Assembly: GCA_020630145.1 (NCBI GenBank)
Contig: JAHDBX010000008.1
Span: 1-15,395, forward strand
Direction of reading: 5' to 3'
DNA: 15,395 bases
From: Gammaproteobacteria bacterium
Lineage (GTDB): Bacteria > Pseudomonadota > Gammaproteobacteria > HTCC5015
Position numbers and translations under genes: made by a program. The notes beneath the pieces are model-generated. The model was not told the origin of the DNA and did not search any database. It saw only the letters and a program-made list of their open reading frames with translations. Position 1 is the first letter of the stretch. Each line of letters opens with the position of its first letter. Below are positions 6,154 through 10,391 of this stretch, in pieces.

Positions 6154-6540
6154 ATGAAGACAGTACAAAAAAATATCACAAGCTTATTGGCTGCTAGTGT
6201 ATTAGCAGGCAGTATATTTACTAGCGTAGCATATGCCGTAGAAGACGGCAAAAAACATAAGCGTGGTCCAAACATTGAGCGTATTGCCGAAAAGCTAGAG
6301 CTTAGTAGTGAAGAAACCGTTTCTTTTACAGAAGTAATGAAACTGCAAATTGAAAAGAAAAAAGCTATTTCAACAGCGCTACGTGAAGAGAGAAAGTCTA
6401 AAATGGATGCGCATAGAGAAGATACATTAACAGCATTGGCCGCTGTGCTAACGGAAGAGCAATTAAATACAATGCAAGAGATGATGGATCGCAAGAAAAA
6501 TCGTAAGAAAAAAAGAGGCGATAAACACGACCACTCCTAG
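6154..6540 (+). CDS. Spy/CpxP-like periplasmic protein with LTxxQ motif
   Basis: Small secreted protein of 128 residues. Residues 1-28 are a clear signal peptide ending in AYA, with cleavage expected before Val29. The mature part is almost entirely charged alpha-helix. It contains one LTEEQ motif (99-103), the hallmark of Spy/CpxP proteins, where known members are ATP-independent periplasmic chaperones or damp the Cpx envelope response. The C-terminus is a Lys/Arg/His-rich tail ending HDHS, which could bind metal or anionic surfaces. A strong GAGGAAA ribosome binding site precedes the ATG. It stands alone, divergent from the membrane-protein gene, and is closed by a terminator. No CpxA/CpxR genes are in the window. 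Identity is by motif and composition; the second LTxxQ repeat usual in Spy is not obvious. Confidence 0.78.
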   Translation: MKTVQKNITSLLAASVLAGSIFTSVAYAVEDGKKHKRGPNIERIAEKLELSSEETVSFTEVMKLQIEKKKAISTALREERKSKMDAHREDTLTALAAVLTEEQLNTMQEMMDRKKNRKKKRGDKHDHS

Positions 6541-8521: not shown

Positions 8522-8950
8522 TTACTTAACCGTAACGGTAATCTTTTTAGATATAACAGGTTTGTCATGTGGAATATGAATGTAGTTACCGAGTAGCAAC
8601 TGCAAAGTATGTTTGCCTGGTGGCAACGTGACTTTTGTTTCTGTCTGCCCTTTACCGAAGTGTTTGATTTTATTGGTTGAAGGTAGTGGTACGCTCATAT
8701 CAGGTAGCTTATCTGTATCAATAAGTAAGTGATGATGCCCGGTGTTTTCAGCATTTGTGCCAGCTGGAGCAACGCCCATGCCTGAAAGGCCAAACTTTAT
8801 AGTAAATGTTGCAGGTACAGTTGCGTCATTAGCAGGTTCAATAAAATAGACTTTAGCGCCATCAGGGGCCTTAGACACTAATTCGTTGGCAGATACAAGT
8901 GTTGTGACTGCAGATAGTAAAATAGCTGTAATAATCAGTAGTTTTTTCAT
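8522..8950 (-). CDS. Secreted DUF4399 domain protein
   Basis: Periplasmic or exported protein of 142 residues. A signal peptide occupies about 1-21 with likely cleavage after VSA. The mature protein matches the DUF4399 pattern throughout: KVYFIEPANDATV near 33-45, FGLSGMGVAPAG (53-64), GHHHLLIDTD (71-80), HFGKGQTE (97-104) and PPGKHTLQLLLGNYIHIPH (110-128). The many histidines hint at metal binding, but no function is established for the family. It is transcribed divergently from the ECF sigma gene and has a matching ECF-type promoter at 8979-9011 that would give a 5' leader of about 25-30 nt. I infer it belongs to the sigma factor's regulon, as an envelope- or oxidant-stress effector. Family call is strong. 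Confidence 0.88.
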   Translation of the reverse strand: MKKLLIITAILLSAVTTLVSANELVSKAPDGAKVYFIEPANDATVPATFTIKFGLSGMGVAPAGTNAENTGHHHLLIDTDKLPDMSVPLPSTNKIKHFGKGQTETKVTLPPGKHTLQLLLGNYIHIPHDKPVISKKITVTVK

Positions 8951-8978
8951 AATAAACTCACAATTCCATGGTTAATAA

Positions 8979-9011
8979 CTATATAAAACACCTTAATTGT
9001 ATTTTTATTCC
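8979..9011 (-). promoter_or_regulatory. Predicted ECF sigma promoter for the DUF4399 gene
   Basis: Read on the - strand: GGAATAAA (9011-9004), an 11-nt spacer, then GGTGTTTTATATAG (8992-8979). GGAAT is the typical -35 core of ECF sigma promoters, and the -10 would fall in GTGTTTT. The same two blocks with the same 11-nt spacer occur in mirror orientation in front of the sigma gene. Transcription would start near 8980, leaving a short leader with a GGAATTGTGAG region before the ATG. Confidence 0.7.
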
Positions 9012-9029
9012 ATAAATTTACTGTATTGA

Positions 9030-9062
9030 GGAATAAATTTCTGTGAGAGGTGTTATATATAG
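9030..9062 (+). promoter_or_regulatory. Predicted autoregulatory ECF sigma promoter
   Basis: GGAATAAA (9030-9037), 11 nt, then GGTGTTATATATAG (9049-9062). It matches the opposing promoter at 8979-9011 in both blocks and spacing, while the spacer bases differ, which is what a shared sigma factor would leave. The two -35 blocks are 18 bp apart. The -10 region ends 2 nt before the sigma ATG, so the transcript would be leaderless or nearly so. Confidence 0.7.
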
Positions 9063-9064
9063 GT

Positions 9065-9613
9065 ATGAGCCAGTATGTATCTGAAAACCTAAGTCATGAA
9101 TTAAGCCATTTATGGCGATTTGCCTTGAGGTTAACGCGCTCTACCAGTTTGGCTGAAGACCTTGTGCAAAAGACGGCTGTGCGTGCGCTTGAGCGTAAAC
9201 ATCAGTTTATATTAGGTACACAGTTACGTAGCTGGCTATTTAGCATAATGCATTCGGTATGGAAGAATGACTTACGGTCTGCTGCTATTCGTCAGCAATC
9301 AACATTTAATTTATCTGATGCTGAAAACTATGCCAGTGAGATATGCCACAGTGAAAATTTACAACTGTTTGATGATGTTATTTCTAATGTAAATCGTTTA
9401 CCAGAAGCGCAGCGAACAGTCATGTTACTAGTCTGTGTGGAAGGTTATAGTTACCAAGAAACGGCCGACATTATGGATGTCGCTGTTGGTACAGTAATGA
9501 GTAGATTAGCACGTGCACGTTTGAAAATAGGCGAAGCCTTTCTTGATAAACAGCATGATGAAGGGTCGGGTGAGCACATAGATAGAGTTAGTAGAAAACG
9601 TTATGAAAATTGA
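9065..9613 (+). CDS. ECF-type RNA polymerase sigma factor
   Basis: Alternative sigma factor of 182 residues. Region sigma2 covers about 11-77 (core binding and -10 contact, with LAEDLVQKTAVRALERKHQF at 29-48), and sigma4 about 108-157 (-35 recognition; the GYSYQETADIMDVAVGTVMSRL helix-turn-helix starts at 127). There is no sigma1.1 or sigma3, as expected for ECF factors. I chose the ATG at 9065. An in-frame GTG at 9050 lies inside the predicted promoter, and its residues LYIG have no family match. No well-placed Shine-Dalgarno exists (GAGAGG is 14 nt away), consistent with a leaderless mRNA. The 3' end overlaps the anti-sigma gene by 11 nt. A charged tail of about 20 residues follows sigma4. 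Predicted targets are itself and the DUF4399 gene. Confidence 0.92.
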   Translation: MSQYVSENLSHELSHLWRFALRLTRSTSLAEDLVQKTAVRALERKHQFILGTQLRSWLFSIMHSVWKNDLRSAAIRQQSTFNLSDAENYASEICHSENLQLFDDVISNVNRLPEAQRTVMLLVCVEGYSYQETADIMDVAVGTVMSRLARARLKIGEAFLDKQHDEGSGEHIDRVSRKRYEN

Positions 9614-10391
9614 TGAAATACAAATATTAAATTACGTAGAGCATAAATTAGATGCGCCTACTCGAGCAGCATTTGAAAAAATTATGGAAAACGATGCTGA
9701 ACTACAAAAACAAGTGCGAGCTATAAAGGCATCGCAGCTGCCTTATGATGCAGCTTTTGCTGCTGAAAAAATACCTGATGTGCCTGAGCGTTTGCAAGAG
9801 CAGCTAGAACAGTTGTCTAGCGTATCATTCGGTACTTCTGTTAAACAGGTATTTTCTCGCTCTCAACGTTGGTTAATGTTTGCGTGTTTATGCTTGGCTT
9901 TTATTACCGGTTCACTCGTTACATTGGGTTTTAACTCGATAAAGTCTGGTTCGGAGTATGAATTATCAGCTTATGGAAACCATGTACTTATTGATGCCAT
10001 GATTCAGTATCAGGCTTTATATAGCCGAGCAACCGTTGAAACGGTTCGCCAGTCATTTGAGAATGCAAACATATTAATCGAAGATTTTAATCAGCGTGGT
10101 AAATATAAACTTGTGATTCCTGACTTTTCTGGTGATGGCTATGAGTTTCGTCGTGCACAAGAACTTGCTTTTTATGAACAGGCTATTATTCAAATGGTAT
10201 ATCTGCCGACTAATGGTAAGCCCTTAGCTTTATGTGTGACAAAGGTTGCAATACCCAATCAAGGCATGAAACATTACCAAAGCGCAGGTATTAATAGCAT
10301 ACTTTGGGTAAAGCAAGGCTTGTCTTATATGTTGATGGGGGACTACACGAAAGAAGAGCTAGAAAGTTTATATAAATCTCTCGTTATCTAA
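9603..10391 (+). CDS. Membrane-anchored anti-sigma factor
   Basis: Single-pass inner-membrane protein of 262 residues, partner of the preceding sigma factor by position: its ATG lies inside the sigma gene (11-nt overlap, ATGAAAATTGA), so translation is coupled. The N-terminal cytoplasmic part (1-88) is helical, with a start like an anti-sigma domain (ILNYVEHKLDAPTRAAFEK). It lacks the HxxxCxxC zinc motif of ZAS proteins. One membrane helix lies at about 90-110, with Cys95 and Cys97 inside it. The periplasmic part (115-262) resembles the sensor half of anti-sigma factors that ends in a FRRAQELAFYEQAIIQMVYL and GKPLALCVTK pattern. The usual logic is that the signal causes release of sigma by conformational change or proteolysis; the signal here is unknown. 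Role is strong by context and architecture. Confidence 0.85.
   Translation: MKIDEIQILNYVEHKLDAPTRAAFEKIMENDAELQKQVRAIKASQLPYDAAFAAEKIPDVPERLQEQLEQLSSVSFGTSVKQVFSRSQRWLMFACLCLAFITGSLVTLGFNSIKSGSEYELSAYGNHVLIDAMIQYQALYSRATVETVRQSFENANILIEDFNQRGKYKLVIPDFSGDGYEFRRAQELAFYEQAIIQMVYLPTNGKPLALCVTKVAIPNQGMKHYQSAGINSILWVKQGLSYMLMGDYTKEELESLYKSLVI

Follow-up and report, generated by a model that had tools for sequence, protein, structure and literature searches.

A putative ECF26-type divergent promoter region between an ECF sigma factor gene and a DUF4399 gene in a gammaproteobacterial draft genome

The locus and its two outward-facing elements

The window analyzed here is a 15,395-nt contig stretch of a draft gammaproteobacterial genome (1,886,361 bases in 306 contigs, 73% complete). 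The minus strand carries a DUF4399 gene (8522-8950). A 114-bp spacer (8951-9064) follows and then, on the plus strand, an ECF sigma factor gene (9065-9613) and the gene of a putative 262-aa membrane anti-sigma factor (9603-10391), which overlaps the sigma gene by 11 nt. The DUF4399 protein has 142 aa, an N-terminus that by eye resembles a signal peptide, and a match to PF14347 over the full length of the profile (126.1 bits against a curated cut-off of 28). Pfam and NCBIfam profiles place Sigma70_r2 at residues 12-73 (7.7e-11) and Sigma70_r4_2 at residues 109-155 (4.7e-16) of the 182-aa sigma protein, which also exceeds the cut-off of TIGR02937 (sigma70-ECF). With regions 2 and 4 only, in about 180 aa, it is an ECF (group 4) factor, and its ATG at 9065 agrees, by eye, with the annotated start of a Caballeronia homologue.

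The spacer carries the composite motif GGAATAAA-N11-GGTGTT twice, at 9030-9054 (+) and 8987-9011 (-), back to back and pointing outward. These are its two matches in the window, and none appeared in any of 200 dinucleotide-shuffled windows. The plus-strand copy lies in a predicted ECF26-type promoter of the sigma/anti-sigma operon (9030-9062), composed of a -35 block GGAATAAA (9030-9037), a -10 region GGTGTT (9049-9054) and a tail ATATATAG (9055-9062). The predicted ECF26-type promoter of the DUF4399 gene (8979-9011, minus strand) has the same GGAATAAA at 9011-9004 and GGTGTT at 8992-8987, and an AT-rich tail TTATATAG at 8986-8979. An AT-rich stretch of 18 bp (9012-9029) separates the two -35 blocks, and, tails included, the elements together occupy 8979-9062. 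That one motif occurs once per strand over this span, facing outward, with identical blocks and 11-nt spacing and different bases in between, was the original observation and proved exact: the inner spacers AATACAATTAA and TTTCTGTGAGA are identical at only 2 of 11 positions, which argues that the pair is no recent copy. A sigma-70-like promoter was sought in the spacer and none was found.

The mapped start of SMa0142 in Sinorhizobium meliloti is the 34th nucleotide from the first G of GGAATA. Applied as a ruler, this distance predicts transcription starts at about 9063 (+) and 8978 (-) in the window. By that analogy, the sigma mRNA would have a leader of 2 nt and the DUF4399 mRNA one of 28 nt. 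Within the predicted DUF4399 leader (8951-8978, minus strand), a three-codon frame, ATG GAA TTG TGA, overlaps GTGAG, a possible ribosome site.

Throughout the recovered genome the window pair are the sole exact matches to GGAATAAA-N11-GGTGTT, also with the gap free over 10-12. The motif had been offered as a key to the rest of a regulon, and this use of it failed, as no convincing third site emerged. Allowing up to two mismatches gives 27 sites, of which two are the window pair and all the rest have two mismatches, as compared with 21 sites for a reversed control pattern, and the core GGAATA-N16-GTT occurs 18 times against 32 for its control; for the recovered 73% of the genome we therefore reject a wider regulon. 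A matrix built from foreign sites, which is partly circular because the pattern used to gather those sites resembles the window elements, scores the two window sites 24.9 and 23.2. No other place in the window exceeds 13.1, and none of 27 other loci of the same genome (25 of the two-mismatch sites and two YceI loci) exceeds 18.5. The two YceI loci themselves gave no score above the threshold of 12. Elsewhere in the window, the gene at 6154-6540 (+) encodes a small, charged, secreted-looking protein that by eye is like Spy/LTXXQ; a weak one-mismatch site, which begins 175 nt upstream of the start of this gene, is probably there by chance.

Relatives of the sigma factor and the element beside them

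The class sample of 369 genomes, own genome included, holds 17 (own again included) with a match to the window sigma at E 1e-24 or better, and the best identity elsewhere in it is 47%. None of three other genomes of the order has a close homologue at E 1e-15, and of nine places in the own genome that looked sigma-like at first, only the window gene passed that threshold. A tblastn search against plasmids gave matches in 987 records, the best of them, at 43-52% identity, in Caballeronia, Paraburkholderia, Pantoea and Cronobacter. As the nearest homologues are at most 52% identical, any reading of the specificity of this sigma factor spans a long distance.

A tree of 46 sigma proteins, from which RpoE7 (L157) was left out, puts the window sigma in a starred set of eight rows with L095, L096 and five Burkholderiaceae rows. 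This set is nested in a starred 14-row clade (support 97/89) that adds YceI-linked, Ruegeria, Pantoea and Cronobacter rows, and whose members come from Caballeronia, Paraburkholderia, Pantoea, Cronobacter, Ruegeria and other gammaproteobacteria. The clade adjoins the RpoE6 rows of S. meliloti in a 20-row group whose support of 93/91 lies below the tree tool's starred threshold. RpoE5 (ECF15) belongs to the sister group, where its branch is long, and E. coli RpoE and S. meliloti RpoE8 are well outside.

The element recurs beside homologues of the window sigma in other bacteria. The 29 genome loci that carry sigma homologues contain four exact copies of GGAATA-N13..15-GTGTT, against a mean of 0.17 and a largest count of 1 for 30 scrambled patterns; allowing one mismatch, they contain 22, against a mean of 3.0 and a largest count of 7. 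The corresponding counts at 12 plasmid loci, which include two near-duplicate pairs, are 6 against 0.07 exact and 10 against 1.0 with up to one mismatch. A dyad search with no preset motif, corrected for expectation and run on 39 foreign loci, none of them from the own genome, returned GGAATA-N16-GTT as the top 6+3 word (14 of 39 loci, 1.65 expected, log10 P -8.6, about 1.57 million words seen). This dyad has the spacing of the window elements, and all but one of its 21 occurrences fall outside sigma genes. Searches for 6+4 and 5+4 dyads did not place GGAATA among their top 12 words. Of five other leading dyads whose places were determined, three fall mostly within sigma genes (CCCATC-N10-TGAG, 9 of 10 occurrences; GGCTCA-N12-TGGG, 10 of 11; ATAACT-N16-ACCA, 7 of 7), and CAGGTC-N16-TCG, fifth among the 6+3 words, does so in 8 of 17. 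Ranking dyads by raw counts was discarded, being swamped by G+C-rich words.

Two further dyads stand apart. GCCTA-N11-AGCT is found at 10 of the 39 foreign loci (0.56 expected), wholly outside sigma genes. GGAATA-N18-TCT, the same -35 with another -10, is enriched as well (11 of 39 loci, 1.19 expected); it lies outside the sigma gene in ten loci (L008, L009, L014, L016, L018, L019, L020, L065, L066, L107), seven of which hold more distant sigma homologues.

Among the 13 foreign members of the clade, nine have a site before a local gene (L006, L058, L059, L061, L062, L067, L095, L096, L097), that of L067 lying inside the sigma gene, and in six of them (L006, L058, L059, L061, L095, L097) sites are divergent. 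The four members with no site before a local gene (L060, L063, L064, L069) are one Paraburkholderia and three enterobacterial plasmids; an exact site does exist in L060, at 7375, close to the end of the locus. When genes within 220 nt downstream are taken as targets, the sites lead to YceI genes in L006, L095 and L097 (the first two confirmed by Pfam, L097 named by likeness), to a Pfam-confirmed CHRD gene in L096, and to cytochrome P460 genes in L010, L011, L101, L102 and L103 (L011 and L103 confirmed by Pfam, the rest named by likeness). The sigma genes themselves stand behind sites in L058, L059, L062, L098, L099 and L100, as do other genes. In L060, L061 and L062 the sigma gene has catalase-family peroxidase genes nearby, and in Cronobacter the sigma pair, which has no site of its own, is flanked by cytochrome b561 and YceI genes. 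A joint mention of YceI, an ECF sigma factor and cytochrome b561 was not found in the literature searched under those exact terms. The sigma/anti-sigma pair looks patchy in its distribution, with different secreted proteins probably under its promoter in different hosts.

The closest named relatives are the Caballeronia and Paraburkholderia plasmid loci L058, L059, L061 and L062, at 43-52% identity. They share with the window the promoter element and an anti-sigma factor of the same type with the conserved cysteine, and differ in their neighbors: type VI secretion or catalase-family peroxidase genes occur there, and no DUF4399 gene. In both Caballeronia loci (L058, L059) the element also forms a back-to-back pair, the -35 blocks being 22-23 bp apart where the window has 18 bp; there the outward partner carries one mismatch. 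The adjoining of ECF26-like sigma genes and type VI secretion genes is seen in L058, L059 and L061 (Caballeronia and Paraburkholderia plasmids), and in L061 an exact GGAATAA..GGTGTT site is aimed at tssA, the gene start being about 146 nt past the expected transcription start. Separately, in five gammaproteobacterial genomes the P460 gene stands beside an ECF26-like sigma gene and itself carries a GGAATAA-type promoter, a second branch with its own target.

The anti-sigma factor and the DUF4399 protein

As marks of an ECF26 anti-sigma factor we took a cytoplasmic N-terminus, one membrane helix and a periplasmic C-terminus, with likeness to COG5662. The window protein has a single hydrophobic stretch, seen by eye, followed by a putative periplasmic domain with a conserved cysteine, Cys211; its profile scores are 26.1 bits for the NCBIfam antisigma model (cut-off 100) and 21 bits for DUF4367 (cut-off 22.1). 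A full anti-sigma factor with a P-x-A-x-C segment is present in 13 of the 14 clade members; in L096 the open reading frame after the sigma gene has only 124 aa and lacks the segment. Pro61, Tyr136, Tyr140, Leu188, Gln197, Pro207, Ala209, Cys211 and Trp235 are invariant in these 13 proteins and in that of L065. Since L065 lies outside the clade and carries the same P-x-A-x-C, Cys211 is ruled out as a feature exclusive to the clade. In a second alignment, four anti-sigma factors from the P460 side (L007, L010, L011, L103) share the domain with no cysteine at the place of Cys211, and four from the RpoE6 side (L154, L098, L100, L106) have cysteines of their own that did not align with it. In the unrelated OsrA of Bradyrhizobium japonicum, a conserved cysteine exposed to the periplasm is required for the peroxide response (PMC3420878), and by analogy Cys211 is a candidate sensor. 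EcfF/OsrA (ECF16; PMC3420878) is an autoregulated ECF sigma factor with a membrane anti-sigma factor, similar in outline to the window system; it belongs to a different ECF group and its anti-sigma factor is a six-helix DUF1109 protein, and the likeness is one of logic, not of membership.

Six histidines of the DUF4399 protein (72, 73, 74, 97, 125 and 128) are invariant among 28 aligned homologues, which suggests that it binds metal; its fold is predicted to be an Ig/FnIII-like beta sandwich. DUF4399 is found in 65 of 274 genomes of the class, own genome included, at 70 places, of which 69 (30 + 39) were examined, a below-cut-off place in G104 being left out. No homologue of the sigma or anti-sigma factor stands beside DUF4399 at any of the 68 other loci, in flanks of about 1.5-3 kb per side, some shortened by contig ends, and no DUF4399 homologue occurs at any of 50 sigma or motif loci; no relative in the sample thus retains the gene pair in which conservation of both blocks was to be compared. 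Within 400 nt upstream of the other DUF4399 genes we found the element once with one mismatch, in L143 at a distance of 246 nt, and in five further cases with two mismatches only. In two other genomes of the family that have DUF4399, one of them at a contig end with one side visible, none of the 17 window genes tested, DUF4399 apart, lies nearby. The literature, as far as its available parts go, yielded no link of DUF4399 to a sigma factor. The counts of 0/68 and 0/50 rule out DUF4399 as a general partner of the window sigma, and the tie between a secreted protein and a specific sigma factor that had been read from this spacer is, within the sample, local to the window's lineage.

ECF26 promoters and the reading of the spacer

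The published promoter work on S. meliloti offers the nearest comparison. The ECF26 promoter consensus is a -35 GGAATA with a -10 GT (PMC6180224), and both window sites contain GGAATA in the -35 and GT in the -10. An ECF26 system is also expected to have a gene for an envelope or secreted protein upstream or divergent; here this is the divergent DUF4399 gene, with its N-terminus like a signal peptide by eye. In S. meliloti the promoters given in Table 1 of that study include GGAATAAATCC..GTGTCT before SMc01418-rpoE1, a mapped promoter GGAATAAATCCATAGCCCTCCGTGTCT precedes SMc01418-rpoE1-ecfR1, and a mapped promoter GGAATAGACCGACGACTCAGCCGTTC precedes SMa0142, which encodes a serine protease and is divergent from rpoE6 (PMC6180224). 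RpoE6 and RpoE1 (PMC6180224, PMC3511301) share with the window a -35 GGAATA(A), a GT-containing -10 and equal geometry, a sigma gene in one operon with an anti-sigma gene whose product is a membrane protein, putatively so in the window, a small target set, in keeping with the mostly small target sets of S. meliloti ECF sigma factors (PMC6180224), and a gene for an envelope or secreted protein just upstream or divergent (SMc01418, SMa0142). There are also differences: RpoE6 is only about 37% identical to the window sigma, the S. meliloti targets are a lipoprotein or a serine protease rather than DUF4399, the -10 is often CGTC or CGTT rather than GGTGTT, the signal for RpoE1/RpoE4 is sulfite, and the RpoE6 anti-sigma factor has two cysteines of its own that did not align with Cys211. 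The promoter strings published for SMa0142, rpoE6, ecfR6 and SMa0148 are all present in the pSymA stretch L153 and in L066, and three of them in L154, which identifies the sigma gene of L154 and L066 as RpoE6. Ruegeria (L067:3787, one mismatch) and S. meliloti (L066:3964, the published ecfR6 promoter; PMC6180224) also have a GGAATA-type site within the sigma gene, ahead of the anti-sigma start; it is possibly a separate anti-sigma promoter.

We consider it very probable that the spacer (8951-9064) is the divergent promoter region of an autoregulated ECF26-type sigma/anti-sigma system with DUF4399 as output. The design is a known one in bacterial regulation, of which the window is a further example. 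The membrane anti-sigma factor would let the sigma factor go, and RNA polymerase carrying the freed sigma would bind both outward GGAATAAA-N11-GGTGTT elements. Transcription of the sigma/anti-sigma operon would provide positive autoregulation, and transcription of the gene for the secreted DUF4399 protein the output. The signal may be, as a guess, redox or reactive-species stress in the envelope, sensed by the periplasmic domain of the anti-sigma factor; the guess comes from some clade relatives, whose neighbors include catalase-family peroxidases, YceI proteins and cytochrome b561. Two outward promoters for the adjacent ECF sigma factor had been proposed from the start, and that core is supported by the ECF26 consensus in print, by the enrichment of the motif beside distant sigma homologues of other bacteria, and by the mapped divergent SMa0142/rpoE6 promoter, which has the same place and geometry (PMC6180224).

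We infer that the window sigma itself reads both elements. It is unlikely, though it would preserve the promoters as such, that another sigma factor of the same cell, ECF or general stress, reads them and that the adjacent sigma gene is a target. The first look at the own genome gave nine sigma-like places, though only one at E 1e-15, and the exact element stands there only beside the window sigma. Autoregulation is common among ECF operons, which also counts against a foreign reader. Cross-reading does occur among the ECF26 factors of S. meliloti, and RpoE6 overlaps RpoE2 (PMC6527743, PMC6180224); against this stands the co-occurrence of the element with homologues of the window sigma in other genomes.

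An operator for a DNA-binding regulator of both genes would likewise appear as two inverted copies in one spacer, and the repeat might be that rather than a pair of -35/-10 promoters. We regard this as very unlikely: the two blocks are asymmetric and have the spacing of ECF promoters, the element in relatives is mostly single and aimed at the start of a downstream gene, and it matches a consensus that derives from mapped transcription starts (PMC6180224). Chance likeness, or a functionless remnant of a local inverted duplication, is hardly credible given the absence of the motif from all shuffled windows, identical blocks around dissimilar spacers, and the presence of the element at homologous loci.

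Beyond the promoter region of an autoregulated ECF26-type system, it is tempting to speculate about the clade as a whole, for which the literature consulted gave no description, in a form that we hold to be doubtful. Its anti-sigma factors might sense periplasmic oxidants or reactive species through the invariant Cys211 of P-x-A-x-C and so switch on, through GGAATAAA promoters, a plug-in set of small redox or metal proteins of the envelope. YceI and CHRD would belong to this set, catalase-like peroxidase and cytochrome b561 perhaps, and in the window DUF4399, which would be a histidine-rich, metal-binding protein of envelope defence. A nearly leaderless mRNA might hold the sigma level down, with the divergent promoter driving DUF4399 strongly. 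What remains new is a clade with a conserved-cysteine anti-sigma factor and redox-flavored, exchangeable secreted targets.

The target set here looks local, a warning that a single motif need not stand for a wide regulon. On this reading, a secreted family of unknown function falls, in one lineage, under an identifiable stress sigma factor. The cross-genus promoter word GGAATAAA-N11/12-GGTGTT may allow the small envelope-protein targets of ECF26-like sigma factors to be read from sequence. Moreover, if the conserved cysteine is the sensor, what this ECF26-like branch detects becomes directly testable.
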